NCBI GenBank assembly: GCA_021297985.1
Contig: JAJTGU010000106.1
Coordinates: 1 to 40,412, forward strand
Length of the DNA: 40,412 bases
Direction: 5' to 3'
DNA from: Rubrivivax sp.
GTDB lineage: Bacteria; Pseudomonadota; Gammaproteobacteria; Burkholderiales; Burkholderiaceae_C
Notes under the pieces: model-generated
Databases searched by the model: none
What the model was told of the DNA's origin: nothing
The model's input: the letters and a program-made list of their open reading frames with translations, nothing else
Part shown: positions 6,960 through 27,586 of the stretch, piece by piece
Numbering within the stretch: the stretch's first letter is position 1
How the letters are laid out: each line of letters opens with the position of its first letter
Program-made: the position numbers and the translations under genes

Positions 6960-6968
6960 GCCCGTGCC

Positions 6969-8012: not shown

Positions 8013-8018
8013 TTCACC

Positions 8019-11697: not shown

Positions 11698-12591
11698 CTA
11701 ACGCCGAAACGCAAAACGCACGCCGCGTGCGATGCCCGCCGGCGGCACCATGTTGTGGTCGTCGCCTTCGTGCACCACGGTCTCGACGTGAAAGCCTGGC
11801 GACGCCAGTGCGGCAAGTCGATCGCCGAGTTCGGTGGTGTTGGGCACCATGCGGCATTCTTCGGTCATGTCGCGGAAGTCTTGTTCGCCAGCCGGCAGGC
11901 CGGCAACGAAGCGAAAAGTGGACTCCAGACCGCCCACGCTGATCAATGCACGCGCCTTGACCTGTCCAGACCGGACTTGGTCACTGAAGGCGGCCTCGTG
12001 CGCCAGCACTGCGCAGTCGTTGAACCAAATGGACGGGCTGATGGCGACGAACTGCTGGAACGTCGCGGTGTGTCGGAAGAGTGCATGCAAGGTGGTCAGC
12101 CCGCCCAGCGAATGACCCATCAGCACCTGCTCTTGCCGGTTGATGGCCACCATCGCCTCGACGCGTGGCTTGACTTCTTCCTCGATCACGCGAAAGTAGT
12201 TGTCCATGCCGCCGAAACCTTCGGATGGCCGAGGCATCTTCGCGATGAAACCCTTCTTCAGTCGCTCGTCCGAGATCGGTGTCGTCAGGTCGATCATGCG
12301 CCGGTCCAACGCGGTGCTGACGCTGTCGGTGGGGTAGCCAATGCCCACCACGACAGGGTCGATCACGTCGGGCCAGCAGGCCTGGATGCGGGCCGTGTCA
12401 ACGGCGATGCCGAGGTGCAGGTTGCCATCGATCAAGTAAAGCACTGCATGCCCTGCTGGCGGCACGGGCCGCCGCGTCGGGATGGAGACGAACAGCCGAT
12501 AGGCGCGGCCATTGACCTTCGAGGTGAAGTCGATGACGCGGGCATTCAAGGCCATTTCGGCCGTGGGCGAAGTGGTGGTGGCGGCTTCCAT
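11698..12591 (-). CDS. Esterase, alpha/beta hydrolase of the esterase-D/Fes-IroE type
   Basis: Alpha/beta hydrolase, 297 aa, similar in layout to the COG2819 group (siderophore esterases such as IroE/BesA and related acyl hydrolases). The N-terminal part reads YRLFVSIP ... VLYLIDGN, typical of this group; the nucleophile elbow is GHSLGG with Ser161, followed by ISPSIWFND. The catalytic His is probably in EGDDHNMVP near the C-terminus. I use the ATG at 12591; the frame is open upstream but would overlap the epimerase gene. It starts 50 bp after that gene. A role in hydrolysing an ester-linked peptide or acyl group is possible; the substrate is not known. Confidence 0.82.
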   Translation of the reverse strand: MEAATTTSPTAEMALNARVIDFTSKVNGRAYRLFVSIPTRRPVPPAGHAVLYLIDGNLHLGIAVDTARIQACWPDVIDPVVVGIGYPTDSVSTALDRRMIDLTTPISDERLKKGFIAKMPRPSEGFGGMDNYFRVIEEEVKPRVEAMVAINRQEQVLMGHSLGGLTTLHALFRHTATFQQFVAISPSIWFNDCAVLAHEAAFSDQVRSGQVKARALISVGGLESTFRFVAGLPAGEQDFRDMTEECRMVPNTTELGDRLAALASPGFHVETVVHEGDDHNMVPPAGIARGVRFAFRR

Positions 12592-12641
12592 GGATTGCTT
12601 TCTGGCGTGGGAGGAAAAAGGGTCGCACGGCGTCGCTGCGG

Positions 12642-13628
12642 TCAGCCCCACAGCGCGGGCTGAGGCGGCTGCACCACACCCTGGTGGTAGGCCATGGCGG
12701 ATGCACGGTCGTCCAGCTGCAGCAAGGGCCCATCGAGATCGGCCCACCGTGCGAGTTGGGCCAACAGGAACGCGGGTGCCATGCCCAGGGAGGTGCCGCA
12801 CATGTTGCCCACCATGACATCGATTCCGAGCGCTCGCGCTTCGCGCGCCAGCGCCAGCGCCTCGGTCAGTCCGCCTGTCTTGTCGAGCTTGATGTTCACG
12901 CCTTGGTAGCGGTTCACCAGCCCCGGTAACGAAAGGCGGTCCGTGCACGACTCGTCGGCGACGAGTGGAATCGGCGAACTCAAGCCATCCAGGGCGTTGT
13001 CCGCACCTCGACTGACGGGCTGTTCAATGCATTCGATACCCAGTGAAAGCAGATCTGGCAAGAGCTTTTCGATCAAACCCCGCGTCCACGACTGGTTGGC
13101 ATCAATCACCAACCGGGCACGCGGAGCTTCGTCACGAACGACCCTGATCCAGTCCAGATGGCGGGCGCCGTCGACCTTGACCTTGATGAGAGGAGCTTCT
13201 GACAGCGCTTTGGCGCGACGCCGGGTGTCGGCCAGGCTGCCAAGGCCGATGGTGCACGCTGTCAACAGCGGACGCATCGGTTGCATGTCAGCGCTGACCC
13301 ATGCGGGTACGCCAGAGCGCTTCGCCCGAAGGTCCCACAAGGCGCAGTCCAAAGCGTTGCGGGCGCCACCGCGGGGCAGATGCGCTGCAAGGTCCTGTGG
13401 CGTCGTCGCTTCGTTCAGGTTCGTGGCAACGGACTCAATCTGCGCCCGCATCGACATCGGCGTTTCACCGTCGTAGTCCACTCCGGCTGCTTCGGCGCGG
13501 CCCACAAATCCGTCGCTATCGGTCAGTTCTACCAACAGCAGCGGCAAATCGACCATGACTTGGCCAGCAATCTCGAAGGGCTCCTTGAGAGGCCAGCTTT
13601 CTTCGGTGGCTTTGACTGCCAGCTTCAT
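12642..13628 (-). CDS. dgcA: Enolase-superfamily epimerase, DgcA/YcjG-like
   Basis: Mandelate-racemase/muconate-lactonizing subgroup of the enolase superfamily, 328 aa. The acid/base lysine pair KVK (149, 151), the metal ligands Asp176 (DANQSW), Glu202 (IEQP) and Asp225 (ADES), and the opposite-face KLDKTGG (Lys250) are all present. The last motif is almost identical to that of E. coli YcjG, the L-Ala-D/L-Glu epimerase. Because a DUF1611 gene lies in the same run, the better reading is N-acetyl-D-glutamate racemase (DgcA) of the DgcN-DgcA D-glutamate pathway; dipeptide epimerase is the alternative. The start ATG overlaps the preceding stop (ATGA). The symbol dgcA is also used elsewhere for unrelated genes. 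Confidence 0.82.
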   Translation of the reverse strand: MKLAVKATEESWPLKEPFEIAGQVMVDLPLLLVELTDSDGFVGRAEAAGVDYDGETPMSMRAQIESVATNLNEATTPQDLAAHLPRGGARNALDCALWDLRAKRSGVPAWVSADMQPMRPLLTACTIGLGSLADTRRRAKALSEAPLIKVKVDGARHLDWIRVVRDEAPRARLVIDANQSWTRGLIEKLLPDLLSLGIECIEQPVSRGADNALDGLSSPIPLVADESCTDRLSLPGLVNRYQGVNIKLDKTGGLTEALALAREARALGIDVMVGNMCGTSLGMAPAFLLAQLARWADLDGPLLQLDDRASAMAYHQGVVQPPQPALWG

Positions 13629-15100: not shown

Positions 15101-16105
15101 TTAAGCTCCCATGGCTTGGACAATTGATTCAACGCCGCCGCGCATCGGATCGCAAACCGGCAACTGCAATTCGGCCTGCAGTTGATCTCGATACCGCGCC
15201 CATTCGGGTAAGGACAACGACGAAGAGTTGATGGCGACGCCCACACACCGAATGTCTGGATTGGTCAGGCGGCCCGCCTCCAGGTAGCGGCGGATGGCCT
15301 CGTCCAGCGCGGGTAGGGCAATGTGGGGGTGGTCTTCAATCGTCTGCCGCGACGGGTCGTGGCACAGCACGATGGCGTCTGGCTGAGAACCGTGCAGCAG
15401 GCCCAGCGTGACACCTGCATAGGCCGGGTGGAACAGGGCCCCTTGCCCTTCCACCACGTCCCAGTGGTCTGCATCGTTGGCCGGCGACAGCGTCTCGGCG
15501 ACACCCGCGATGAAATCGGCGACGACGGCGTCGATGGCCACCCCTTGCCCCGCGATCAGGATGCCCGTCTGCCCGGTAGCGCGGAACGTGGCCTTCATGC
15601 CCCGGGCAGTCAGGGCCCGGGTGATGGCCAAGGCGGTGTACTTCTTGCCGAGCGCGCAATCGGTGCCCACCGTCAGGACACGCCGCCCGGAGCGCCTGAG
15701 CCCAGTACCGACAGGCCAGTCGCGGTCTGCGTGGCGCACGTTGATCAACCGGGCCTGGCGCTCGCGCGCCGCCTCCACCAGTTGCGGGTAACGCTCCAGC
15801 CGCGTGTGCATGCCGCTGACCACATCCAGGCCAGCGTGCAGCGCGTCGGCCAGGGTCGGAATCCAGGCCTCGGGCAGACGCCCCCCTGGCGGCGCCACGC
15901 CGACGACGATTGAGCCCGCACCGCGCCTGGCCGCGTCTGCCGGTGCGATCACCGGCAGGCCCAGGCTCACGGTGGCTTGGGGCAAGGCCCACTGGCCGAT
16001 GACATCGGTGGGGCACCAGTCGCGCAGGCCGAAGCCGGTCTTGGCATCGGACTTCAGCGTGACGTCACCGAGGAAGATCAGGTAGGGCTTGCGCAGTGTG
16101 TGCAT
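15101..16105 (-). CDS. dgcN: DUF1611 family D-glutamate N-acetyltransferase, DgcN-like
   Basis: DUF1611 protein, 334 aa. It has a Rossmann-like N-terminal domain (PYLIFLGDVT; SIVVGVAPPGG) and a P-loop-like C-terminal domain with VGTDCALGKKYTALA (146-160), then GQTGILIAGQG and VEGQGALFHPAY, as expected for the family. DUF1611 proteins paired with a YcjG-like epimerase have been described as DgcN, which N-acetylates D-Glu before DgcA racemises it. It is the first gene of the minus-strand run. Its ATG lies only 5 bp from a 16-bp palindromic operator, and a possible -10 (TACTAT) ends 7 bases before ATG with no Shine-Dalgarno, so the mRNA may be leaderless. Family call is strong; the D-Glu role rests on the pairing. 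Confidence 0.83.
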   Translation of the reverse strand: MHTLRKPYLIFLGDVTLKSDAKTGFGLRDWCPTDVIGQWALPQATVSLGLPVIAPADAARRGAGSIVVGVAPPGGRLPEAWIPTLADALHAGLDVVSGMHTRLERYPQLVEAARERQARLINVRHADRDWPVGTGLRRSGRRVLTVGTDCALGKKYTALAITRALTARGMKATFRATGQTGILIAGQGVAIDAVVADFIAGVAETLSPANDADHWDVVEGQGALFHPAYAGVTLGLLHGSQPDAIVLCHDPSRQTIEDHPHIALPALDEAIRRYLEAGRLTNPDIRCVGVAINSSSLSLPEWARYRDQLQAELQLPVCDPMRGGVESIVQAMGA

Positions 16106-16110
16106 GAGGC

Positions 16111-16126
16111 GGATAGTATTTCATCC
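16111..16126. promoter_or_regulatory. Palindromic operator, copy A (upstream of dgcN)
   Basis: 16-bp imperfect palindrome, GGATGAAATACTATCC on the minus strand, 5 bp upstream of the dgcN start and covering its possible -10. It is one of four copies of the consensus GGAYAMWATASTATCC. It has the weakest symmetry of the four but keeps all ten invariant positions. It is probably bound by the XRE-cupin regulator encoded beside it. Confidence 0.7.
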
Positions 16127-16142
16127 ACCCCATGGTGCGCAA
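16113..16142 (-). promoter_or_regulatory. Possible dgcN promoter
   Basis: On the minus strand TTGCGC (16142-16137) and TACTAT (16118-16113) are separated by 18 bp. The -10 lies inside operator copy A and ends 7 bases before the dgcN ATG, which would put the transcription start at or next to the start codon. The -35 match is poor, so this is a tentative call. Confidence 0.4.
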
Positions 16143-16160
16143 CCCGGCCGCGCGGCCGGG
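16143..16160. terminator. Perfect GC palindrome after the regulator gene
   Basis: 18-bp perfect palindrome CCCGGCCGCGCGGCCGGG, 12 bp past the stop of the XRE-cupin gene and before the dgcN promoter. It could form a strong hairpin that ends regulator transcription. There is no T-tract, so it may instead be a chance GC-rich palindrome. Confidence 0.35.
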
Positions 16161-16172
16161 CGATCCACCGTT

Positions 16173-16832
16173 TCAGACCGGCGGCGTGTTCGCGCTCACG
16201 ACGACGGCTTCCTGGTCGCTCACGTTGCGAAACTTGTGCGGCAGCCGGCTTGAGAACAGGTAGCCGTCGCCAGGGCCCAGCACGCGCGTGGCGCCGCCCA
16301 CCGTGACCTCGACTTGGCCCTGGATCACGATGCCACCTTCGTCACCGATGTGGCTGTAGGGCGTCTTGGCTGTCTCCGCGCCGGGGGCGTAGCGCTCCAG
16401 CAGCACCTGCAGCGGCCGGCCCTTCAGGTTGTGGCCTACCTGGCGCAAAGAGATGCCGCCGCCGCCCACCTCAAGCAGTTCGCGCTGGCTGAAGAAGACC
16501 TGCGTCTCGCTCTCGGGTTCCAGCGCGAAGAACTCGGACAGCGTCATGGGAAAGCTGTCAAGGATCTTGCGCAGCGAGCCCACAGAAGGCGAAATCGCGT
16601 CGCGTTCGATGCTGCCGATGGTGGCGTGTGTCAGACCAGCGCGCCGCGCCAGTTCGCGCTGCGACAGGCCATGCATTTCGCGCAGGAAGAGCAGTCGGGC
16701 GCCTACGCCGGAGTTGGCGTCGCCGCCGCCAACGTCCGCCGCCGGTGGCTGCTTGGCGGGCTTGGCAGTCTTAGCAGGCTTGGATTCTGCGGCCGCGGCG
16801 CGGGTGCTGCGGGCGGGGCTGGGCAGGGGCAT
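16173..16832 (-). CDS. XRE family regulator with C-terminal cupin domain
   Basis: DNA-binding regulator of the XRE-cupin (PuuR-like) type, 219 aa. A low-complexity Ala/Lys/Pro-rich tail (about 1-40) precedes the helix-turn-helix domain (about 43-98, GLSQRELARRAGLTHATIGSIER), then a cupin sensor domain (about 140-215, EGGIVIQGQVEV ... GPGDGYLFSSRLPHKF). Regulators of this type commonly sense amines, amino acids or their derivatives. I use the ATG at 16832; a GTG start at 16859 is possible and neither has a clear Shine-Dalgarno. It is divergent from the serine hydrolase, and an operator copy lies in the gap, consistent with autoregulation. It is the natural candidate to bind all four palindromes. 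Confidence 0.88.
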   Translation of the reverse strand: MPLPSPARSTRAAAAESKPAKTAKPAKQPPAADVGGGDANSGVGARLLFLREMHGLSQRELARRAGLTHATIGSIERDAISPSVGSLRKILDSFPMTLSEFFALEPESETQVFFSQRELLEVGGGGISLRQVGHNLKGRPLQVLLERYAPGAETAKTPYSHIGDEGGIVIQGQVEVTVGGATRVLGPGDGYLFSSRLPHKFRNVSDQEAVVVSANTPPV

Positions 16833-16909
16833 GGCAAAAGGAGTGCGGGAGAAGAACACTTGCCAGTGTAGCCACGCGTTGCCGCAGATGGCCGGTGCGC
16901 TGCTACAGT

Positions 16910-16925
16910 GGACACAATAGTAGCC
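16910..16925. promoter_or_regulatory. Palindromic operator, copy B (regulator/serine hydrolase gap)
   Basis: 16-bp site GGACACAATAGTAGCC in the 110-bp gap between the divergent XRE-cupin gene and the serine hydrolase gene. It ends 6 bp before the hydrolase Shine-Dalgarno (GGGAG, 16932-16936). A weak promoter for the hydrolase (TTGCCG 16879-16884, 19 bp, TACAGT 16904-16909) would start transcription inside this site, as expected for repression. Confidence 0.72.
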
Positions 16926-16942
16926 AAACTTGGGAGTTGATC

Positions 16943-18253
16943 ATGCCTGCAATGTCGTCCTTGCCGCCCGGGCTGGGCAGCCAGCTGGCGGCTTCGGCCA
17001 TCGGCTTCGGCATTCCCGGCCTGGCCATTGCGCTGGCCGCGCCAGGGCGGCAGGCGCTGTTCCTGCACGGCGAGCAGCCCGCCGGCTCCGGCCAGCCGGT
17101 TGACGAAGCGACCTGGTTTTCAGTGGCCTCACTTGGCAAGCACGTGACAGCGGCCACGCTGCTGGACCTGGCCGCACAGGGGCGTCTGGACCTGACCGCG
17201 GAGATTGGCCACTTGCTGCCCGATGTGCCCGCAGCCTGGGCCGACCGCAGCGTGGCTTCGCTGCTGCACCACACCAGCGGCCTGCCGGAGTACCTGGCGC
17301 TCGCGCTGGACGCCGTGCCGACGCAGCGTTGCGACTTCATGGCCGCCTACGCCGACCTGGCGCCGGCCTTCGGCGAAGGGCAGGGTTGGCTTTACACCAA
17401 CACCAACTACATCCTTGCCGGGTTCCTGATCGCGCAGGCGGCGGGCCGGCCTTATGCAGCCGCTGTTCAAGCAATGTTTGACCGCGCTGGCGTGCCAGGT
17501 GCGGCGGTGGGCACGCCGAGCTGGGCAGCGCAGGCGCGCGGTGATGCTGCGCCGGATGCGGAAAGTGCCGCGCGTGAGGTCATTGGTGACGGCGATGCCT
17601 GCTTCACGCCCACCGGCGCGTTGGCCTGGCTGCAGGCCCTGCTGGCCAGTCCGGCCTTCGACGAAGCGCTGCGCCGGCAGATCAGCTCGCCTGGCGTGCT
17701 GGCCAGCGGCCGGCCTTCGTTGTACGGCGCTGGCTGGTTCCTCGAGCCGCTGCGCGATGGCTGGTTGATGCACCACGCAGGCCACTTCGACGGCTGGACC
17801 GCGATGGCCATCCTTGATCCTGCCTCGCGCAGCGGCGTGATCGCGATGTGCAACCTGGCGCCCGGGAACACGCGCGCCATTCGCCACCTGGCACAGCAGG
17901 CGCTGGAGGGCTACGCGCCGGGCAGCACGCCGCTGTCGCTGCCGCCCATCGAGGACCGAGCACCGGCGCTCACCGCCGCTGCGCTCACGCAACTGATCCG
18001 CCGGCCGGGCGAGGAACTAGACGCCGAACGTTTCGCGGACGAGCTGAAGAACGTCGCACAGCATGGCGGTAGCGTGCGGCGCATGCCCAACCTGTGGGCC
18101 GGCGTCGAACCCGAACGCGTGGAGCTCGTGAGCGAACTGGGCGCACCGACGCACCGCTTGCGCCGCCACCGCCTGGTCTATGCCGACCGTACGGAACACC
18201 TGCTCGCCGGCTTCACGCCCGAAGGCCGGCTCTACTGGGCCTGGGTGCTGTGA
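16943..18253 (+). CDS. Serine hydrolase, class C beta-lactamase/DD-peptidase fold
   Basis: Penicillin-binding-protein-like serine hydrolase, 436 aa. The catalytic SxxK is Ser63-Leu-Gly-Lys66 (SVASLGK), the second motif is Tyr151-x-Asn153 (YTN) and the third is HAG in MHHAGHFDGW. A C-terminal region of about 90 residues after the catalytic domain may be a separate beta domain, as in D-aminopeptidases. No signal peptide is visible, so it is probably cytoplasmic, which argues against a resistance beta-lactamase and for a D-amino-acid amidase/peptidase or esterase role. The start ATG has GGGAG 6 bases upstream. It is transcribed divergently from the XRE-cupin gene across an operator. The linear-peptide hydrolase MlrB belongs to the same broad fold. 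Confidence 0.87.
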   Translation: MPAMSSLPPGLGSQLAASAIGFGIPGLAIALAAPGRQALFLHGEQPAGSGQPVDEATWFSVASLGKHVTAATLLDLAAQGRLDLTAEIGHLLPDVPAAWADRSVASLLHHTSGLPEYLALALDAVPTQRCDFMAAYADLAPAFGEGQGWLYTNTNYILAGFLIAQAAGRPYAAAVQAMFDRAGVPGAAVGTPSWAAQARGDAAPDAESAAREVIGDGDACFTPTGALAWLQALLASPAFDEALRRQISSPGVLASGRPSLYGAGWFLEPLRDGWLMHHAGHFDGWTAMAILDPASRSGVIAMCNLAPGNTRAIRHLAQQALEGYAPGSTPLSLPPIEDRAPALTAAALTQLIRRPGEELDAERFADELKNVAQHGGSVRRMPNLWAGVEPERVELVSELGAPTHRLRRHRLVYADRTEHLLAGFTPEGRLYWAWVL

Positions 18254-18450
18254 GCGGGCGACACGTCCTCTTTTGATCCAACTCCGACCGCGAAGCGCAC
18301 GCGCACACCGACGCGGCTCAGTTTGCGCCGCCAGGCCTGTGCGAGAGATTGCGAAGAACGGATGCCAAAGCATCCATCTGCACAAAGTTCGCACCACACT
18401 GTCTCTTTTCTCCCTGCTACAACAACCGAAGATCTGGATCTGCATCCTGA

Positions 18451-18479
18451 TTGACGGACACTATAGTATCCAATACGAT
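18451..18479 (+). promoter_or_regulatory. Sigma-70-type promoter of the TonB receptor gene
   Basis: TTGACG (18451-18456), 17-bp spacer, TACGAT (18474-18479). Four or five bases of each hexamer match the consensus and the spacing is ideal. The spacer is filled almost completely by operator copy C. The expected start near 18486 leaves a short leader with AAGGAG (18498-18503) before the ATG at 18513. Confidence 0.72.
18456..18471. promoter_or_regulatory. Palindromic operator, copy C (TonB receptor promoter)
   Basis: 16-bp site GGACACTATAGTATCC, the most symmetrical of the four copies (only two mismatched pairs at positions 4/13 and none in the central ACTATAGT). It lies between the -35 and -10 of the receptor promoter, where a bound protein would block RNA polymerase. 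Confidence 0.78.
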
Positions 18480-18512
18480 GGTTCGCACCGACCCACGAAG
18501 GAGCTCTCTACG

Positions 18513-20579
18513 ATGAAGTCCGCTGCCCTTGTCCTGCTCTTGACACCCTTCGCGGCCTTCGTCGCCGCCTCTGCGGCGCGCGCCCAGGCAGTGACCACCG
18601 ACGTCATCACCATCACCGCCACCAAGCGGCCCGAACGCATCACCGACGTGCCAGCGGCCATCACCGCGATTGGCGCAAACGAGATCCGCGACCGCGGTGC
18701 AAGTGATTTGCGCGATTTGCAGTATTCGGTACCCGGCCTGAACATCCAGGAGCAAGCCCCAGGCGCCAACCGCATCCAACTCCGTGGCGTGAACGCGGGT
18801 GCTGGCTCGGGCCTGCCCATCGTCGGCACCTATGTCGACGAAGTCGGCATCACCATCGACCAGCAGCAGCGCGATGGGCCCTTCCCGCTGGTGGACCTGG
18901 CCCGCATCGAGGTGCTGCGGGGCCCGCAGGGCACTTTGTACGGCGAAGGCTCGTTGGCCGGCACCATCCGCTACATCACGCGCAACCCCAGCCTCACACG
19001 CACTGACGGCTTCATCGAGGCCAACGCCTACCGCCAGGGCGAAGGTGGCACGGGCTACCGTGTCAATGGCGCGGTGGGCGTGCCGCTCATGACCGACAAG
19101 GTGGGCCTGCGCGTGGCCGGCGGTTATGACAAGACGGCTGGCTGGATCGACTACCCACAGATCAACGCCAGCGACGTCAACAGCAGCAAGCGTTGGTTCA
19201 TTCGCCCCAAGCTGTTTGCGCAGGTCACCGACAAGCTGACCGTGTCGCTGATGTTGCAACGCTACGTTTATGAAGGAGACAGCGACAACCTCAGCAGCGC
19301 GGCCGACCCCATGGTGCGTCAGCGCAACGAGCGCTTCCCCGGTTCGGACAAGAGCGATCTGGCCAACGCCGTGGTGCAGTACGACTTCGGTCCGGTCACA
19401 CTGACATCGTCCACCGGCTACCAGAAGCGCGATCTGCTGTTCAACGCCTCGTTGGCGGGCTTCCGCGTCGTCTTCGACACGGCTTTCAAGCAGTGGAGCC
19501 AGGAAGTGCGTATCGCCTCCAACGGCGATGGCCCGCTGCGCTATTCGGCCGGCATTTGGATGCGCGACTTCAAGTCCGAGATTGACCGCACCGCCTTCCG
19601 CGGCGGCGCGGTCACCACGGCGCTGCGCCGCGTCGGCGACGACCCAGTGGATTCGACATCTTCGGCCGTCTTCGGTGACGCGACCTGGAAGCTGAACGAC
19701 CGCATCGAAATCAGCGGCGGCGGCCGATGGTTCAACGACGAGCGCTCGACCGGTTCCACGGTACCTGCCGTGGCCACCACCAGCGCCAAGTTCGACGCCT
19801 TCAGCCCGCGCCTGTCGGGCCGCTATGAATGGAACCGCAACGCATCGACCTACGCGACCGTGGCCAAGGGCTTCCGCTCTGGTGGCTTCAATGGCAGCCG
19901 CACCACCTTCGGCCCGGAAACCTTGTGGAACTACGAACTTGGCCACAAGGCTTCGCTGCTGGGGGGCAACGTCTTCTTCGACGGCGCCGTCTACTACGCT
20001 GACTACAAGGACCGTCAGGCCCAGTCGGCCGCCGAAGTCAGCCCCGGCGTCTTTGCGGCGGAAACGCGCAATGTTGGCAAGGCTTCAGGCCCGGGTGTTG
20101 AGGCCGGGCTGAGCGCACGCCTGGGCGCCGGCCTGGAACTCAGCGGCACGGTCGGCTGGAGCGACATCAAGTCAAAAGTGAGCAACACCGAGGTGCTGAA
20201 AGGCGAAGCCTTCGACTTCGTGTCCAAGGTCACAAGCTCGTTGTCGCTGAGCCAGCGGCTGCCGGTCTTCGCCGGCCTGACCGGCATGTGGCGCGTGGAC
20301 TACCAGCATGCTGACCCGTACACACAGCGTGTACGCCAGCAACTGCCTACCGGCGCGGTGTCCACGCTGCAGGACTTCCGCAGCCAGAACCAGGACTACT
20401 TCAATGTGCGAGCCGGTGTCGAAGCCAAGGGCTGGAGCCTGATGCTGGACGTGAAGAATCTGTTCGACAAACGGCCGCTGCTGTTCCCCGTGGCGCCGAT
20501 CAGCGCGTCAGGCGAGGGCGGCCACGCCGCGCCGCGCACCATCGGCCTGACCTTGCGCAGCACTTTCGGCGGCACCTGA
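18513..20579 (+). CDS. TonB-dependent outer-membrane receptor
   Basis: Outer-membrane active transporter, 688 aa. A signal peptide (about 1-24, ending AARA before QAVTTD) is followed by a possible TonB box (DVITITA), a plug domain (about 45-150, with RIQLRGV and VEVLRGPQGTLYGEGSLAGTIRYIT-type motif shown here as RGPQGTLYGEGSLAG) and a 22-strand-type barrel to the C-terminus (TIGLTLRSTF). It belongs to the large group of receptors found in catabolic loci of proteobacteria, not obviously a siderophore receptor. The start at 18513 has AAGGAG 9 bases upstream. Its promoter contains operator copy C, so it is probably co-regulated with the peptidase and D-Glu genes and imports their substrate. Confidence 0.92.
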   Translation: MKSAALVLLLTPFAAFVAASAARAQAVTTDVITITATKRPERITDVPAAITAIGANEIRDRGASDLRDLQYSVPGLNIQEQAPGANRIQLRGVNAGAGSGLPIVGTYVDEVGITIDQQQRDGPFPLVDLARIEVLRGPQGTLYGEGSLAGTIRYITRNPSLTRTDGFIEANAYRQGEGGTGYRVNGAVGVPLMTDKVGLRVAGGYDKTAGWIDYPQINASDVNSSKRWFIRPKLFAQVTDKLTVSLMLQRYVYEGDSDNLSSAADPMVRQRNERFPGSDKSDLANAVVQYDFGPVTLTSSTGYQKRDLLFNASLAGFRVVFDTAFKQWSQEVRIASNGDGPLRYSAGIWMRDFKSEIDRTAFRGGAVTTALRRVGDDPVDSTSSAVFGDATWKLNDRIEISGGGRWFNDERSTGSTVPAVATTSAKFDAFSPRLSGRYEWNRNASTYATVAKGFRSGGFNGSRTTFGPETLWNYELGHKASLLGGNVFFDGAVYYADYKDRQAQSAAEVSPGVFAAETRNVGKASGPGVEAGLSARLGAGLELSGTVGWSDIKSKVSNTEVLKGEAFDFVSKVTSSLSLSQRLPVFAGLTGMWRVDYQHADPYTQRVRQQLPTGAVSTLQDFRSQNQDYFNVRAGVEAKGWSLMLDVKNLFDKRPLLFPVAPISASGEGGHAAPRTIGLTLRSTFGGT

Positions 20580-20642
20580 AGGGGCGCGGCCGGGCGCGGG
20601 GCGGGCTGCAGAACGGGTGGGCCCAGGGGCTCGCTCGCCACA

Positions 20643-21788
20643 CTAGCGCAGCGTCTCCATCAACCGCATCAACAAACGGGTGCGCGGAATGATGCTGCTG
20701 ATGTAGAGCCGCTCGTCCAAGGTATGGCCTCCGTCGCCATCGACGCCCAGGCCGTCGAGCGTGGGCGCGATGGCGGCGGTGAAGTTGCCATCACTGCCGC
20801 CGCCGGTCTTCAGGTCGATCAACTCGAAGCCGATCTCGGCCGCCAGCCCTTTGGCATGTTCGTACAGCGCTGCGATCCCGGGTGTCTTTTCGTAGCCTGG
20901 CCGGTTGATGCCGCCCTCTACGGTCAGCGTGACGCCTTCGAGATGCGGTTTGAGGCCTCGGATGCGTCGCACGATTTCCTCGCCGATCTCGGGGTTGGGC
21001 ATGCGCACATCCACGTCCACCGTTGCGGTGTCGGGCACCACGTTGGAACGCGTGCCGCCCTTGATCAGGCCCACACTGACGGTGAGCTCGCGCGCGTAAT
21101 CAGTCATCGCTTCCAGCGCCAGCACTTGGTGCGCAATCTCGTGGATGGCGTTGCGACCGAGGTGGTGTTCGACGCCAGCGTGGGCCGCCACGCCATGGGC
21201 TGTGACCTTGAACTGGGCGCAGCCCTTGCGTGCGGTGACGATCTTGCCGCCCGAGCGTGCCGGCTCGGTGACCAGCACGTACTTCGCACGCCGCGCCTCG
21301 CGTTCGATGTGCTCGCACGAAGTGTCGCTGCCCATCTCCTCGTCGCTGACCATCAGGTGCCGCACCGGCAGGTGCGTCTTCAGGCCGTCCCGCCCGATCT
21401 GTCGCAGGGCGGCCAGCGCCAGGTAGGTGCCGCCCTTCATGTCCTCGGCGCCTGGGCCATAGGCACGGTCGCCCTCGATGCGGAACGGCAAAGGCCCGGC
21501 CAGTGTGCCGATGGGATGCACGGTGTCGATGTGGCTCAGGATCAGCAGGCCCGGGCCGGCCGCAGCCTCGCGTGGGCAGTGCCTGTCGTCTGTCGCCAGC
21601 ACGTGGTCGCCAAACCCGTCCCGGCCGGCAATGCGCTCCACCCGCACGCCGATGGCTTCATAGTCGGCCTGCACCCGGGCAGCCATGCGTGCCATGCCTT
21701 CGGGGTCGTCCGTTGGGCTTTCGATTTCGATCCAGGCGCGGATACCGGCCAGTATTTCGTCCACATTCAAGGGCTGGGCGCTTGTCAT
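20643..21788 (-). CDS. M20 family metallopeptidase, carboxypeptidase G2-like
   Basis: Zinc-dependent M20 peptidase/deacylase, 381 aa. Ligands are visible: His86 (SHIDTVHP), Asp116 (GAEDMKGG), the catalytic pair Glu150-Glu151 (SDEEMGS), Glu175 (VTEPA) and a C-terminal His in GGHTLDER; the dimerisation-lid motif AHAGVEHHLGRNAI is present. Layout fits carboxypeptidase G2, which removes C-terminal Glu, and the ArgE-like deacetylases. It could therefore release Glu from a conjugate or deacetylate N-acetyl-L-Glu made by DgcN/DgcA. No signal peptide. I place the start at the ATG at 21788 (GGAG 6 bases upstream) instead of an upstream TTG. It diverges from the M19 gene, with operator copy D in the gap. 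Confidence 0.9.
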   Translation of the reverse strand: MTSAQPLNVDEILAGIRAWIEIESPTDDPEGMARMAARVQADYEAIGVRVERIAGRDGFGDHVLATDDRHCPREAAAGPGLLILSHIDTVHPIGTLAGPLPFRIEGDRAYGPGAEDMKGGTYLALAALRQIGRDGLKTHLPVRHLMVSDEEMGSDTSCEHIEREARRAKYVLVTEPARSGGKIVTARKGCAQFKVTAHGVAAHAGVEHHLGRNAIHEIAHQVLALEAMTDYARELTVSVGLIKGGTRSNVVPDTATVDVDVRMPNPEIGEEIVRRIRGLKPHLEGVTLTVEGGINRPGYEKTPGIAALYEHAKGLAAEIGFELIDLKTGGGSDGNFTAAIAPTLDGLGVDGDGGHTLDERLYISSIIPRTRLLMRLMETLR

Positions 21789-21813
21789 CAAAGGCTCCAA
21801 AGTGAATGCTGCG

Positions 21814-21843
21814 TAGACAGCAGGAATTTATGGATAGTATATT
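21814..21843 (+). promoter_or_regulatory. Possible promoter toward the M19-soxBDAG genes
   Basis: TAGACA (21814-21819), 18-bp spacer, TATATT (21838-21843). The -10 matches five of six consensus bases and lies inside operator copy D. It would produce a leader of about 190 bases before the M19 start. Confidence 0.5.
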
Positions 21844-21847
21844 GTCC
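21832..21847. promoter_or_regulatory. Palindromic operator, copy D (M20/M19 divergent gap)
   Basis: 16-bp site GGATAGTATATTGTCC (minus strand GGACAATATACTATCC) in the 251-bp gap between the divergent M20 and M19 genes. It overlaps a good plus-strand -10 and lies 43 bp upstream of the M20 start, so it could control both directions. Confidence 0.75.
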
Positions 21848-22039: not shown

Positions 22040-23032
22040 ATGAAGACCGCTCTTGACATCATCCAGGGCTGCCTGGTGTGGGACAACCATGGCTGCATGC
22101 CTTTGCGGCCGCTTGACACCAGCTTCTTGCCACAGCTGGCGCGCTGCCGTGCCGCGGGGTTTGACCACATCTCGCTGAACGTCGGCTTTGGCGACGACAG
22201 TATCGAGCAGCACCTGCGCATGATTGCCAGCTTCCGGCACTGGTTGGGCCAGCGTGCCTCCGACTACACCCTGGTGCGCACGGTGGATGACATCGAATCG
22301 GCTCGGAACAGCGGCAAGCTGGCAGTGAGCTTCGACATCGAGGGTGCCAACGCCGTTGCTGATCAGATCAGTCTGGTTCAGCTGTACTACGACCTTGGCG
22401 TGCGCTGGATGCTGCTGGCCTACAACCGCAACAGTGCTGCTGCAGGGGGCTGCCAGGACGACGACTGTGGCCTCACGGACTTTGGCCGCCGGCTGATCGA
22501 CGAGATGACGCGCGTGGGCATGGTGGTGTGCTGCAGTCACCTGGGCAGCCGCAGCGCGCAGGAGGTGCTGGAATACGCACCAGGGCCGGTCATCTTCTCG
22601 CACTCCAACCCGAGCGCGGTGCGGCCGCACCCGCGCAATATCTCGGACGCCTTGATGCGTGCCTGCGCGGCCAAGGGCGGTGTGGTGGGCATCAATGGCG
22701 TAGGCCCGTTTCTGGGTGACAACGACACCCGCAGCGATACCTTTGTGCGCCACGTCGATTACGCCGTGCAGATGATAGGCCCACAGCATGTGGCGCTGGG
22801 TCTAGACCACGTCTTCGACCAGGCCGAGGTGGACGCCGGCATGGCAGCCATGAAGGGCCTGTTTCCACCTGAACTGGGTTATGACAAGGGCATGAACTTC
22901 GTTCAGCCCGAACAGTTGGAGGCCATCGTCGATGGTTTGCTTCGACTGGGTTACGCCGAAGGCGACCTGCGGTCCATCCTGGGTGGCAACCTGATGCGCA
23001 TTGCTCGGCAGGTCTGGAAAGAGCCGGCATGA
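22040..23032 (+). CDS. M19 family (renal-dipeptidase-like) metallohydrolase
   Basis: Peptidase family M19/membrane dipeptidase-like, 330 aa, cytoplasmic. The bridging Glu101 (FDIEG), His167 (CCSHLG), His188 (FSHSNP) and Asp256 (GLDH) match the binuclear zinc site, and GLTDFGRRLIDEMTRVG is typical of the family. The first metal motif, normally HxD, reads His17-Gly-Cys19 (WDNHGCMP), so one ligand is changed. Family enzymes hydrolyse dipeptides, often with D-residues at the C-terminal side; other members act on N-acyl or lactone substrates. It lies 127 bp upstream of soxB and may be transcribed with soxBDAG. No Shine-Dalgarno is obvious; the N-terminus fits the family start. Confidence 0.85.
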   Translation: MKTALDIIQGCLVWDNHGCMPLRPLDTSFLPQLARCRAAGFDHISLNVGFGDDSIEQHLRMIASFRHWLGQRASDYTLVRTVDDIESARNSGKLAVSFDIEGANAVADQISLVQLYYDLGVRWMLLAYNRNSAAAGGCQDDDCGLTDFGRRLIDEMTRVGMVVCCSHLGSRSAQEVLEYAPGPVIFSHSNPSAVRPHPRNISDALMRACAAKGGVVGINGVGPFLGDNDTRSDTFVRHVDYAVQMIGPQHVALGLDHVFDQAEVDAGMAAMKGLFPPELGYDKGMNFVQPEQLEAIVDGLLRLGYAEGDLRSILGGNLMRIARQVWKEPA

Positions 23033-23159
23033 CAGTCCTTCGCTTTGGTGGCAGCAGGCCACTTGCAACAAGCGCCCAAAAGAAGTTGCGAGCGCCCAAG
23101 TTTTTGTTCCGCGGGCATAACTCCTTGCGTGCCTGTCGCACTACGCTTGGATCAACTTG

Positions 23160-24443
23160 ATGCCCAACCCAACACCGCCGCGCCAGCGCTACTCTGCCTG
23201 GAACCTGTTCGCAGCTGCGCGGCGCGGCCACACCGACTGGGCGCCCGCCTGGCGCGAAGCCGAGCCCAAGCCGCGCTACGACGTCATCGTCATCGGCGGC
23301 GGCGGGCACGGCCTGGCCACGGCCTACTACCTGGCCAAGAATCACGGCGTCACCAACGTTGCGGTGCTGGAAGCCGGCTGGATCGGCGGCGGCAACACCG
23401 GGCGCAACACCACCATCGTGCGCTCGAACTACCTGTACCCGGAAAGCGCGCGGTTGTACGACTTCTCGCTGCGGCAGTACGAGCGACTGGCGACCGAACT
23501 CAACTTCAACATCATGCTCAGCCAACGTGGCATCGTCACGCTGGCCCATTCACGGCACGACCTGGACGCCCAGTCTCGTTGGGCCAACGCCATGCTGTGC
23601 AACGGCATCGATGCCGAATTGCTGGACGCCCGTCAGGTGCAGGAACTTGAGCCCCGGCTGAACTTTGGCGCCAATGCGCGCTTCCCCATCGTGGGCGGCT
23701 TCATCCAGCGCCGGGGAGGGTCGGCGCGGCACGATGCCGTGGCATGGGGCTATGCCCGCGGCGCGTCGGCCTTGGGGGTGGACATCGTGCAGAACTGCGC
23801 CGTCACAGGTTTCCTCAAGCAGGGCGACACGGTCGTGGGCGTGACCACCCGCCGTGGCGATGTGCAGGGTGAGATACGCGCCGATAAGGTGGCCCTGGCC
23901 GTTGCCGGGCACTCGTCGGTGCTGGCCGGCATGGCCGGTTTTCAGCTGCCCGTGACCAGCTACGCCCTGCAGGCGATGGTGAGCGAGCCGGTCAAGCCGG
24001 TGCTCAACACCGTGACCCTGTCGCCGTCGCTGGGGGCTTACTGGAGCCAAAGCGACAAGGGCGAGGTGGTGATCGGTGGCGCGCTCGATCACTTCCCGTC
24101 CTACGCGCAGCGCGGCAGCTTCGATGTCATGCAGCACGTGGTGGCGGCCACGGTCGAGATGTTCCCCTCGCTCAGCCGCCTGCGCCTGCTGCGCCAATGG
24201 GCGGGCATCGTCGACGTGGTGCAGGACAGCAGCCCCATCATCGGCGCCACGCCGGTTCCGGGCCTGTTCATCAACTGCGGCTGGGGCACCGGCGGCTTCA
24301 AGGCCATCCCGGTGGGCGGCTGGACGCTGGCGCATGTGCTGGCCACCGGCCGCAACCACGAACTGGCAGAACCGTTTCAGCTGCAGCGCTTTCACACCGG
24401 CCGCTTGATCGACGAAGCCGCTGCCGCCGGCATCGCACACTGA
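23160..24443 (+). CDS. soxB: Sarcosine oxidase beta subunit
   Basis: FAD-dependent oxidoreductase subunit of heterotetrameric sarcosine oxidase, 427 aa. The dinucleotide-binding motif VIVIGGGGHGLATAYYLA lies at 42-59, and GGSARHDAVAWGYAR contains His191 at the position expected for the covalently bound FMN. The enzyme oxidatively N-demethylates sarcosine to glycine, passing the C1 unit to tetrahydrofolate. I chose ATG at 23160 over a TTG one codon upstream. The 127-bp gap before it has no clear promoter; it contains a duplicated GCGCCCAA. Next genes follow as D, A, G in standard order. Confidence 0.94.
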   Translation: MPNPTPPRQRYSAWNLFAAARRGHTDWAPAWREAEPKPRYDVIVIGGGGHGLATAYYLAKNHGVTNVAVLEAGWIGGGNTGRNTTIVRSNYLYPESARLYDFSLRQYERLATELNFNIMLSQRGIVTLAHSRHDLDAQSRWANAMLCNGIDAELLDARQVQELEPRLNFGANARFPIVGGFIQRRGGSARHDAVAWGYARGASALGVDIVQNCAVTGFLKQGDTVVGVTTRRGDVQGEIRADKVALAVAGHSSVLAGMAGFQLPVTSYALQAMVSEPVKPVLNTVTLSPSLGAYWSQSDKGEVVIGGALDHFPSYAQRGSFDVMQHVVAATVEMFPSLSRLRLLRQWAGIVDVVQDSSPIIGATPVPGLFINCGWGTGGFKAIPVGGWTLAHVLATGRNHELAEPFQLQRFHTGRLIDEAAAAGIAH

Positions 24444-24455
24444 ACGGAGCTGGCC

Positions 24456-24731
24456 ATGATGCAACTCCGATGCCCCCTGTGCGGTCCGCGCGCGGAAAGC
24501 GAATTCCGCTGCGGCGGCACCACCGGCATCGCGCGGCCTCCGCTGGACTGCAGCGATGAGACCTGGGGCGCGTACCTGTACTTCCGCGACAACCCCAAAG
24601 GCGAGCACGCCGAGCGCTGGTGCCACACCTGGGGCTGCGGCCTGTGGTTCAACATCCTGCGTGACACCGTGACGCACGAAGTGAAGGCGGTCTACGGCAT
24701 CACCCAGGCGCAGCCAAGGTCCTTGCCATGA
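24456..24731 (+). CDS. soxD: Sarcosine oxidase delta subunit
   Basis: Small zinc-binding subunit of heterotetrameric sarcosine oxidase, 91 aa, full length. The zinc ligands are Cys6 and Cys9 (CPLCG), His57 and Cys61 (CHTWGC). The conserved YLYFRDNPKGEHAERW segment is unmistakable for the family. The start has GGAG 6 bases upstream. The gene begins 12 bp after soxB and overlaps soxA by 4 bp (ATGA), ensuring balanced subunit synthesis. Confidence 0.95.
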   Translation: MMQLRCPLCGPRAESEFRCGGTTGIARPPLDCSDETWGAYLYFRDNPKGEHAERWCHTWGCGLWFNILRDTVTHEVKAVYGITQAQPRSLP

Positions 24732-27586
24732 GCGGCTACCGCTTGCCAGCGCCCCAGGGTGCCTGGCTAGACCGCTCACGGCCGCTGCGCTTGCAGTTCA
24801 ACGGCCGCGACGTGCCGGGCTTTGCCGGCGACACCGTGGCCTCGGCCTTGCTGGCGCAGGGCATCGTGCATGTGGGCCGCAGCTTCAAGCTGCACCGGCC
24901 GCGTGGCATCTTCAGTTGCGGGGTGGAAGAGCCCACCGGCCTGCTCGACATCGGCCTGGGCGGTGCACGCACGCCCAACACGCGCGCCACCGACATCGCC
25001 GCGCAGGACGGCCTGCAAGCCTTCACCGGCAACGCCTGGCCGAGCCTGGAATTCGACCTGGCGGCGCTCAGCTCAGGCTTTGCGGCGCTGCTGCCGGCGG
25101 GCTTTTACTACAAGACCTTCATGTGGCCGCACTGGCATGTCTTCGAGCCCACCATACGCCGCATGGCCGGGCTTGGCGTGGCGGCCGATGCCACTGACCC
25201 CGACCGCTACGACCAGGTCTCGCGCCAGGTGCAGGTGCTGGTGGTGGGTGCCGGTGCAGCGGGCGTGCAAGCGGCGCTGGCGGCTGCGCACTGCGGCCAG
25301 CAGGTGCTGCTGATGGAGGGTGCGGCGCAGTTCGAGCCCGCCTGCGCCGCCCGCCTGCCCGAACTGCAACAGGCCGGTGTGGAGGTGCACACGCGCTGCA
25401 CCGTGTTTGGCCTGTACGACCACCGGCTTGCCGCGGCCACGCAGGTGGTCGATGGCGCGGTGCGCGAACGGCTGTGGAAGATCCGGGCCGAACGCATCAT
25501 CCTGGCCACCGGGGCCTTCGAGCGGCCGATGCTCTTCCCCGACAACGACCGCCCGGGTGTGATGCTGGCCAGTGCTGTGCTTCGATATGCCACCCACTAT
25601 GGCGTCGCCTGCGGGCGCCGTGTGCTGGTGAACACGGCCTGCGACGCTGGCCACATCGCGGCCCGCGCGATGCTGGCCGCCGGCTTGAACGTTGTCGCCG
25701 TGGTGGACCATCGCCGCGCGGCGGCCGTCGATGCCATGCCCGGCGTGCCGGTGTTTCGCGGCAGCGCCATCGTTGCGGTGTTCGGCAAACGAGCGACAAG
25801 CGGTGTTGCCATCGCTGCGCATGAAGGGGGCCCCATCCACCACGTTGCGGCCGACTGCATCGCCAGCGCCGGCGGGTGGGCGCCTGCCGTCAACCTGCAT
25901 TCCATGGCCGGTGGCAAGCTGCGCTGGGTCGACGACGCAGCGATGTTCGTGCCAGTGGCCGGCGTGCCCGGCATCGAAGCGGTGGGCGCGTGTGCCGGTG
26001 TCTTCGATGCCGACGCTTCGCTGGCGCATGCCGATGCCGTGGGCCGCGGCCGCCCCGTCCCGGCTCCAGTGGGTGGCACGGGCGTGGTGGTCGCGAACAA
26101 CAGCCCGACGCCGGCGGCGCTGGCCACCCGGCGGCGCGGGCCTGGCAAGGTCTTCGTCGACTTGCAGAACGATGTCACCGCAAACGACGTGGCGCTGGCT
26201 GCGCGCGAGAACTACCGTTCGGTCGAGCACCTCAAGCGCTACACCACGATGGGCATGGCCACCGACCAGGGCAAGACGAGCAACGTCAACGCGCTGGTGT
26301 TGATGGGGGAAGTGACCCAGCGCACCCCGGGCGAGGTAGGCACCACGAAGTTCCGTCCGCCCTTCAAGCCGGTGACCCTGGGCGCGCTGGCCGGCGGCCG
26401 AAAGGGGGCGCTCTACAAGCCGCTCAAGCGCATGCCAGGGCATGCCTGGCACGATGCCCACGGCCCGCTGTGGGAGGAGTTCGGTGCTTGGCAGCGCCCG
26501 GCGGCTTACCCGCGCAAGGGCGAATCCTTGAACGCCGCCGCCGAGCGGGAGGCCTTGAACGTGCGCCAGCATGTCGGCCTGTTCGAGGCCTCGCCACTGG
26601 GCAAGATCGAGCTTTACGGACCCGATGCCGCGGGCTTCCTGGACCTGATGTACGTGGGCACGATGTCCACCTTGGCCATCGGGCAGGCGCGCTACGGCCT
26701 GCTGCTGCGCGAAGACGGCGTGATCTTCGACGACGGCATCGTCGCGCGCCTGGGGCCGCAGCACTTCTGGGTCAACACCACGTCGGGCGGCGCCGAGCGC
26801 GTCGCGCAGGCCTTCGACGAGTGGCTTCAGTGCGAGTACGTGCAGCACCAGGTACTGGTCACGCCCGTGACCTCGGCCTGGGGCAACGTCACGGTGGCCG
26901 GGCCCAAGGCCTGGGCCCTGCTGGATGCGGCGGGCTTCGAAGCGTCATTGGCACCCGCAGTCATGAAGCACATGACGCTGCGCGAGGTCCATCATGGCGG
27001 CGTGCCGATGCGGCTGCTGCGTGCCAGCTTCAGCGGTGAACTGGGTTACGAGATCAACCTGCCGGCGGATCGTGTACCGGATCTGCTGGAGAGCCTCTGG
27101 AAGGCGGGTCAGGCTTTCGGCGTGATGCCCTACGGCGTTGAGGCGCTGATGATCCTGCGCACCGAGAAGGGCTACCTGCATCTGGGCGCGGATACCGATG
27201 GCACGACCTTCCCTGGAGATGTCGGCCTCGACCGCGGCATTGCCAAGAAGACGGCCAACTTCGTCGGCCGGCGATCCCTGCTCAGGCCGGTTGCGACCGA
27301 CGCAGACCGCATGCAACTGGTCGGTCTGCTGCCGCTGGACCGCCGCACCAGCCTGCCCGTTGGCGCGCACATAGCGGCGCAGGTGCCGCCGGCCGCGATC
27401 GACGGCTTCGTCACCTCCAGTGCCTTCAGTCCGGTTCTTGGCCACCCGGTGTCGCTGGCCATGCTCAAGCGAGGCAGCCAACGCTTGGGGGAGTGCATCA
27501 CCGCGTATCACCTGGGCCAGGCGTTCAAGGCCCAGGTGGTGAAGACGCCTTTCTTCGATCCCACGGGCGAGCGGCTGCATGGTTGA
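24728..27586 (+). CDS. soxA: Sarcosine oxidase alpha subunit
   Basis: Large subunit, 952 aa. An N-terminal ferredoxin-like domain (about 10-105, FNGRDVPGFAGDTVASALLA) is followed by a pyridine-nucleotide-disulfide-type NAD+-binding domain (VLVVGAGAAGVQAALAAA near 172-189) and a C-terminal aminomethyltransferase (GCV_T) domain (about 580-945) that binds tetrahydrofolate and receives the formaldehyde-level carbon. Length and order are standard. It overlaps soxD by 4 bp and soxG by 8 bp. No glyA, purU or sdaB gene follows, unlike many glycine-betaine loci. The substrate could be sarcosine or another N-methyl or secondary amino acid. Confidence 0.95.
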   Translation: MSGYRLPAPQGAWLDRSRPLRLQFNGRDVPGFAGDTVASALLAQGIVHVGRSFKLHRPRGIFSCGVEEPTGLLDIGLGGARTPNTRATDIAAQDGLQAFTGNAWPSLEFDLAALSSGFAALLPAGFYYKTFMWPHWHVFEPTIRRMAGLGVAADATDPDRYDQVSRQVQVLVVGAGAAGVQAALAAAHCGQQVLLMEGAAQFEPACAARLPELQQAGVEVHTRCTVFGLYDHRLAAATQVVDGAVRERLWKIRAERIILATGAFERPMLFPDNDRPGVMLASAVLRYATHYGVACGRRVLVNTACDAGHIAARAMLAAGLNVVAVVDHRRAAAVDAMPGVPVFRGSAIVAVFGKRATSGVAIAAHEGGPIHHVAADCIASAGGWAPAVNLHSMAGGKLRWVDDAAMFVPVAGVPGIEAVGACAGVFDADASLAHADAVGRGRPVPAPVGGTGVVVANNSPTPAALATRRRGPGKVFVDLQNDVTANDVALAARENYRSVEHLKRYTTMGMATDQGKTSNVNALVLMGEVTQRTPGEVGTTKFRPPFKPVTLGALAGGRKGALYKPLKRMPGHAWHDAHGPLWEEFGAWQRPAAYPRKGESLNAAAEREALNVRQHVGLFEASPLGKIELYGPDAAGFLDLMYVGTMSTLAIGQARYGLLLREDGVIFDDGIVARLGPQHFWVNTTSGGAERVAQAFDEWLQCEYVQHQVLVTPVTSAWGNVTVAGPKAWALLDAAGFEASLAPAVMKHMTLREVHHGGVPMRLLRASFSGELGYEINLPADRVPDLLESLWKAGQAFGVMPYGVEALMILRTEKGYLHLGADTDGTTFPGDVGLDRGIAKKTANFVGRRSLLRPVATDADRMQLVGLLPLDRRTSLPVGAHIAAQVPPAAIDGFVTSSAFSPVLGHPVSLAMLKRGSQRLGECITAYHLGQAFKAQVVKTPFFDPTGERLHG

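Follow-up and report, generated by a model that had tools for sequence, protein, structure and literature searches.

A conserved palindrome as candidate operator of a local XRE-cupin regulon in a probable D-glutamate-peptide gene cluster of Rubrivivax

XRE-cupin transcription factors combine a helix-turn-helix (HTH) domain with a cupin domain, and in Pseudomonas aeruginosa, according to the accessible part of the study that describes them, their palindromic sites lie in core promoters, from which they repress the genes next to them (PMC7901475); palindromes of XRE regulators have also been surveyed in silico, as the available portion of a further paper indicates (PMC12565409). Here we analyse a 40,412-nucleotide stretch of DNA from Rubrivivax sp. 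(assembly GCA_021297985.1, contig JAJTGU010000106.1; the whole stretch is called the window below), in which four copies of one palindrome accompany a cluster of genes for an XRE-cupin regulator, DgcN- and DgcA-like enzymes, several hydrolases, a TonB-dependent receptor and sarcosine oxidase. The locus shares with the P. aeruginosa local repressors (ErfA, PsdR, PauR and five others, in the accessible part of PMC7901475) the HTH and cupin domains, a regulator gene beside its putative targets, palindromes in core promoters and targets of a metabolic kind, and the window palindromes are intergenic and next to the regulator gene, the arrangement that marks an XRE-cupin local regulator. It departs from most of these regulators, which are described there with one or two targets (29 genes for PauR), in that the regulon would take in about ten genes and no fewer than four operators; the motif also differs, and D-glutamate enzymes are among the putative targets.

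PsdR of P. aeruginosa, with its dipeptide regulon (mdpA, dppA3), offers a further likeness as far as the available text of PMC10965056 extends: there too an XRE-cupin gene lies by dipeptidase and peptide uptake genes, and two sites flank the regulator gene. Uptake here would, by contrast, run through a TonB receptor and an MFS carrier, and the PsdR motif TTAAGNNNNNCTTAA has no match in the window at up to two mismatches. PuuR is the best NCBIfam match of the Rubrivivax regulator, yet one below the cut-off, and no putrescine genes were recognised among the cluster genes scanned. In the conversion of D-glutamate (D-Glu), DgcN acetylates D-Glu, DgcA racemises the product and a deacylase then frees L-Glu. 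The DgcN-DgcA pathway is reportedly described by Yu and co-workers in the ISME J in 2023. That the DgcN-DgcA route leads from D-Glu to L-Glu is stated in the accessible parts of two papers (PMC10845958, PMC12363236). As in that pathway, dgcN-like and dgcA-like genes occur here in one run; unlike in it, both proteins score just under the curated cut-offs and an extra gene of unknown family stands between them. No regulator or operator of dgcN was found among the literature matches listed or in the accessible parts of PMC12363236 and PMC10845958, most subscription papers and the key pathway paper lying beyond the search.

The palindromes are a genuine motif, local to the cluster. A first-pass annotation of the window had singled out four 16-mers that align without gaps; their coordinates and strands (Table 1) and the identity of 10 of the 16 columns in all four are as it gave them. 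When matches with up to three mismatches were counted on both strands, with 100 shuffles as control, the window yielded eight as against 0.23 expected (sd 0.51, shuffle maximum 2), which bears out the contention that such AT-centred palindromes are unlikely by chance. The better form of the motif spans 18 bp, TGGAYANNATANNRTCCA. A genome-wide scan, suggested by the annotation as a check, covered the 4,732,485 bases (340 contigs) of the same genome and found matches with up to two mismatches at these four places only, so that nothing equally good exists outside them. Three mismatches admit three more places, two elsewhere and one, at 21747, in the cluster; as up to that threshold the 10 strand-wise matches compare with 7 for a reversed control pattern, only the better matches are informative. 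A scoring matrix trained solely on the sites of relatives, and partly circular because those sites were first found with window-derived patterns, ranks the four palindromes first to fourth in the window (33.3, 25.2, 24.2, 23.3), followed by positions 21747 (12.5) and 18360 (11.5). In 100 first-order Markov sequences of 40 kb the maxima averaged 6.1 and reached 17.2, and for that reason the weak pair at 18360 and 21747 rests on its conserved position, not on its score. The earlier statement that the window holds no further copy accordingly stands for copies of equal quality but not for these two weaker sites. Among the most conserved matrix columns are the two-fold symmetric T-GGA/TCC-A arms, which lie outside any promoter element.

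The sites are also retained upstream of orthologous genes, a second check that had been proposed. The regulator was sought in 60 genomes of the genus at 1e-30 and in all 81 at 1e-60, and in 399 sampled genomes of the order and 399 of the family with up to seven candidates scored per genome, which makes absences in these last two sets soft. It was found in 8 of the 81 genus genomes, the own genome included (1e-60), in 1 of 399 order genomes and in 2 of 399 family genomes (G000, G538). In a ninth congener, G072, missed by the 1e-60 search, the regulator gene lies in two pieces with residues 75-128 or so missing (L155 3276-3762) and the operators are intact; the break is possibly an assembly fault in this draft genome. 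Relatives keep sites at the dgcN, S12/regulator, TonB and M20/sox promoters, and G538, which belongs to another genus, has a set of them at these promoters. Seven relatives (G020, G030, G011, G072, G002, G008, G041) share an unaltered GGATGAAATAATATCC at dgcN, 4-5 bp before the ATG, with flanks that differ between two subgroups; in the G538 palindrome 22 of 24 positions pair, as counted by eye. The S12 proteins of relatives are 56-59% identical to that of the window, and the TonB proteins 71% (G008), 68% (a second copy in G072) or 37-39% (others); because the sites are conserved in spite of this spread, it seems that receptors were swapped and the operators kept. Thirteen genus genomes bear dgcN: nine have the close type (76-100% identity) together with sites, and the four with a 51-52% type have neither a regulator match (1e-60) nor, over the stretches read, a site scoring 12 or above.

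Two relatives show further variation at these loci. In G072 dgcN-dgcA is present a second time, accompanied by two variant palindromes at a spacing of 158 bp (L156 9243, 9401); the receptor of this copy is nearer to the window's (68%) than that of the first copy is (37%), and just upstream of it no site reaches a score of 12. G008 has an extra site (L135 18670, score 30.8) in front of another MFS carrier gene, which looks like an extension of the regulon in this genome.

Regulator and sites occur together across the genus. The exact 18-mer is present in seven of the nine genomes with an intact or broken regulator (not in G002 and G031) and in none of the 72 others (Fisher 1.0e-8, uncorrected for kinship). 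It was drawn from the sites of these nine genomes and G538, and the telling part of the comparison is therefore its absence elsewhere. With up to two mismatches, a hand count over the 60-genome genus sample puts the 16-mer at 27 distinct places in the 8 regulator genomes and at 21 in the remaining 52; the 27 include the 4 defining places and one apparent chance match (G011 C226). Counted strand-wise, the same sample gives 55 matches versus 12 for the reversed control. In the family sample the exact 18-mer occurs in 13 of 399 genomes, and in G000 and G538 it lies in the cluster (in G538 once more elsewhere). In G031 the regulator and S12 genes are on contig C53 and dgcN is on C63. In the 11 kb read on the downstream side of the regulator there is no dgcN match, and in the 13 kb read upstream of dgcN none to the regulator; both places carry sites, two of them, 129 bp apart, on the dgcN side. 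That unlinked places both have sites argues for action in trans, and against shared ancestry of one DNA block as the reason for the association.

The placement of the sites suits repression. In 10 of 11 dgcN promoters a -35-like hexamer stands 16-18 bp before a -10-like hexamer that is part of the operator and lies 6-8 nt before the ATG; the hexamer pairs score 7-10 of 12, with G031 as the exception, and at random places in the same loci such a pair at that distance, scoring at least 7 of 12, turns up in 0.5%. Given this short distance, and given that no ribosome-binding site is evident by eye at dgcN, its mRNA is probably leaderless when driven from the operator promoter. The TonB operator fills the 17-bp spacer in G000, G538, G002 and G041 and covers the -10-like box in G020, G030, G011 and G072, and an operator over the -10 box or the spacer is placed as a repressor site would be. 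In a stricter promoter scan of the window the TonB and M20/M19 sites show promoter-like pairs, but the sites at dgcN and S12 show none.

The obvious candidate for the binding protein is, as had been proposed, the XRE-cupin regulator, a 228-residue open reading frame (ORF) with an XRE-type HTH (PF01381) at residues 59-110 and a cupin (PF07883) at 154-222. It is the sole transcription-factor gene among the 20 ORFs, from 4833 to 32065, that were scanned for protein families, and it co-occurs with the sites. Its recognition helix exists in two variants, LTH(A/G)TIG(S/A)IERD and LNHGTI(G/R)CIE(K/N)E, a difference that goes together with a changed right arm, TGAACA, in the S12 sites of G002, G008, G041 and G538 and in the TonB sites of G002 and G041. 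Of the targets listed earlier, the dgcN run, S12, TonB, M20 and M19-sox are retained as putative ones; control of the regulator's own gene is doubtful, since 77 bp separate its start codon from the site, which stands beyond a likely -10 box (by eye).

Comparative sequence evidence gives good support to the view that the cluster is a genuine local regulon with the XRE-cupin protein as candidate repressor, and we consider it likely that a local XRE-cupin repressor uses the sites as operators to control the catabolism of D-glutamate peptides. What is shown are the sites, how they are conserved and placed, and that they co-occur with the regulator; binding, repression, ligand, pathway and cooperativity are inferred and may be pictured as follows. 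An XRE-cupin dimer would bind inverted repeats of the TGGAYANNATANNRTCCA type that overlie the core promoters of the dgcN run, S12, TonB, M20 and M19-sox, and would hold off RNA polymerase until binding of a ligand in the cupin pocket frees the operator; most likely that ligand would be either a dipeptide that contains D-glutamate or a pathway intermediate, for instance N-acetyl-glutamate. The genes under this control would serve the uptake and cutting of D-amino-acid peptides, D-Glu being turned into L-Glu through DgcN, DgcA and an M20 deacylase, and N-methyl amino acids passing to sarcosine oxidase. The S12 and M19 enzymes would suit peptides with D-residues and the sarcosine oxidase N-methyl amino acids, and the M20 protein could perform the final deacylation. 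If this scheme is true, an operator sequence, its cognate repressor and their regulon are defined in a Burkholderiales genus, and through their place in the regulon the unknown-family gene (13625-14983), the S12 hydrolase and the TonB receptor fall into a single pathway for breaking down D-amino-acid peptides.

Several results count against assigning the sites to this regulator and this pathway. At the window's own dgcN promoter the hexamer pair scores 7 of 12, and the blank outcome of the stricter scan at dgcN and S12 points the same way. Once a single mismatch is allowed, the 18-mer matches in 39 of the 81 genomes, many of the matches being GC-rich words (the reversed control gives 9 matches), and in the family sample the exact 18-mer occurs in 11 of the 397 genomes without a detected regulator, at one place in ten of them and at two in G550. 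Three of these places were read (in G708, in G671 and one in G550); regulator or dgcN is absent nearby, and the genes at G708 and G671 are unrelated. The dgcN site of G031 is weak (19.2), below the best chance-level scores of alphaproteobacterial loci (20.6, 19.4). The patterns and the matrix, too, derive in part from the sites they score. As for the proteins, the regulator reaches 148 bits with the PuuR model (PRK09943), whose cut-off is 211, and the scores of the DgcN and DgcA models (441 of 480 and 390 of 400 bits) are the reason why the two genes are named DgcN-like and DgcA-like.

The sites could instead belong to a different transcription factor encoded elsewhere, the XRE-cupin gene being a mere neighbour or target. 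Such a factor would account for G072, where sites persist with a broken XRE-cupin gene and where the second dgcN copy has variant sites without an adjacent regulator, both of which tell against the XRE-cupin protein; one site also stands beside the regulator gene, as expected of a target. The genus-wide co-occurrence of regulator and exact sites speaks for the XRE-cupin protein, however, as does G031, which keeps regulator and sites though they are no longer adjacent. Some arm changes, moreover, accompany recognition-helix changes, a covariation that is partial, in that the dgcN and M20 sites of the same genomes retain ordinary arms. The cluster genes scanned yielded no other factor, no genome-wide search for a co-occurring one having been made, and we judge a factor of this kind improbable. 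An activator or dual regulator in place of a simple repressor is more improbable still: the sign of regulation is not fixed by sequence, and the site by the regulator gene lies upstream of that gene's likely promoter (by eye), but sites over -10-like boxes or in the -35/-10 spacer occupy a typical repression position, and the P. aeruginosa family members are inhibitors in the accessible part of PMC7901475. A reading without any regulator, in which the similarity comes only from core-promoter conservation or from AT-centred palindromes arising by chance, is scarcely credible. The motif does hold -10-like hexamers; yet the symmetric T-GGA/TCC-A arms, outside promoter elements, are among the most conserved columns, and 4.73 Mb contain only 4 places at up to two mismatches.

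If the XRE-cupin protein is the repressor, its binding at the TonB promoter, and perhaps at M20, may be made cooperative by a further weak operator facing roughly the same side of the helix. A companion match lies 96-98 bp upstream of the main TonB site in seven of the nine promoters that have one (scores 10.5-16.0), namely in the window, G020, G030, G011, G072, G538 and G041; of the remaining two, G002 scores 6.6 at 97 bp and G008 15.6 at 66 bp. In the background 5 of 283,726 positions reach a score of 8, although several of these genomes are near kin and the independent events correspondingly fewer. At M20 a weak match occurs 66 or 85-87 bp inward of the main site in the window and in seven of eight relatives (not in G008), the conservation of which is partly explained by the protein because it lies in coding DNA; in the window it uses the rare ATA codon, which accounts for 7 of the 241 Ile codons in 14 cluster genes. 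The six spacings fall near whole helical turns (R 0.87 at 10.5 bp, p 0.004, or 0.006 with a scanned period of 10.0-11.5), a post hoc result that depends partly on weak sites. A 48-bp companion match at S12 (G002, G008) was rejected as a second site, since by eye it resembles rather the regulator's -10 box. One may speculate that the XRE-cupin protein acts as a tetramer or by looping on operator pairs about whole turns apart (66, 85-87, 96-98, 129, 158 bp), silencing a leaderless dgcN and a complete gene set for D-glutamate/N-methyl peptides, for instance lake-cyanobacterial non-ribosomal peptides, though we hold this full picture to be unlikely. The idea of a cyanobacterial substrate comes from gene content and isolate names, a lake origin being a guess from such names, and a literature search found no link to such a peptide.

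A different operator likely serves the alphaproteobacterial relatives of the regulator. The best 80 of 135 loci with homologues were kept, 77 of them outside the genus (1.52 Mb). The homologues (Bradyrhizobium, Methylobacterium, Microvirga) are 54-57% identical in aligned examples and differ in their recognition helix (TNSTISLIESN or similar), in gene context and in the absence of the window motif. At up to one mismatch GGAYANNATANNRTCC is absent from 76 of these 77 loci, and the best matrix scores are the 20.6 and 19.4 cited above. The loci were rejected as carriers of the same cluster, their gene context being unshared except for one dgcA match (L097). A de novo palindrome search upstream of the homologues retrieved TTGCGNNNNNCGCAA in 47 of the 77, in five displayed examples shortly before the regulator start (e.g. 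L043 10014, L049 10047; examples in Bradyrhizobium and Methylobacterium), and this palindrome is the likely candidate operator of the alphaproteobacterial branch.

The features of the cluster are collected in Table 1. The minus-strand run from 16832 comprises the regulator, the dgcN-like gene, the unknown-family gene, the dgcA-like gene, an esterase, the M32 carboxypeptidase and the MFS carrier; the plus strand carries the S12 hydrolase and the TonB receptor and, beyond the divergent M20 gene, M19 and the sox genes. Of the soxB, soxA and soxG profiles run, soxB scores above its cut-off (652 vs 529 bits), and soxA (1076 vs 1164) and soxG (36 vs 144) below.

Table 1. Candidate regulatory sites and genes of the cluster, in window coordinates
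Feature	Position	Strand	Basis or remark
Candidate operator at dgcN	16111..16126	-	pattern, matrix; right arm contains likely -10 box TACTAT, 7 nt from ATG; 5 bases to dgcN start codon
Candidate operator, divergent gap XRE-cupin regulator / S12 hydrolase	16910..16925	+	pattern, relatives, matrix; 17 bases to S12 start, 77 to regulator start
Candidate TonB receptor operator	18456..18471	+	pattern, relatives, promoter scan; inside 17-bp spacer, TTGACG to TACGAT; 41 bases to TonB start
Candidate operator, divergent gap M20 / M19-sox	21832..21847	-	pattern, relatives, matrix; overlaps promoter-like hexamers on both strands; 43 bases to M20 start, 192 to M19 start
Second weaker palindrome GGATGCCAAAGCATCC	18360..18375	+	96 bp upstream of TonB operator; matrix score 11.5
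Weak internal match, 5' end of M20 gene	21747..21762	-	85 bp from main operator; matrix score 12.5; rare ATA codon
XRE-cupin transcriptional regulator (HTH_3 + Cupin_2), proposed binder of all sites	16173..16832	-	Pfam, NCBIfam; start refined by reading (16832)
dgcN-like gene (DUF1611)	15101..16105	-	Pfam PF07755; NCBIfam DgcN 441 bits, cut-off 480
Unknown-family gene between dgcN and dgcA, about 452 aa	13625..14983	-	60% identical homologue in G538
dgcA-like racemase gene	12642..13628	-	NCBIfam DgcA 390 bits, cut-off 400
Esterase-like gene	11698..12948	-	ORF overlaps dgcA; true start probably near 12650
M32 carboxypeptidase, end of dgcN run	10150..11649	-	family scan
MFS transporter, end of dgcN run	8796..10187	-	family scan
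S12 hydrolase (beta-lactamase fold)	16943..18253	+	nearest solved chains D-amino acid amidase, alkaline D-peptidase; start refined by reading (16943)
TonB-dependent receptor	18513..20579	+	family scan; start refined by reading (18513)
M20 hydrolase	20643..21788	-	nearest solved chain carboxypeptidase G2; start refined by reading (21788)
M19 dipeptidase	22040..23032	+	family scan
Sarcosine-oxidase genes soxB, soxA, soxG	23157..28157	+	NCBIfam profile scores

Rfam has no match in the whole window. Upstream of the cluster, positions 2157-8717 hold peptidase-type genes (DUF885, M3), a Rieske/VanA-type oxygenase and a nitroreductase, and no site with a matrix score of 12 or more. The protein encoded at 13625-14983 has no sequence match in Pfam, NCBIfam or the PDB, and in G538 its homologue is not part of the dgcN run but stands about 1.5 kb past the M20 operator (L163).

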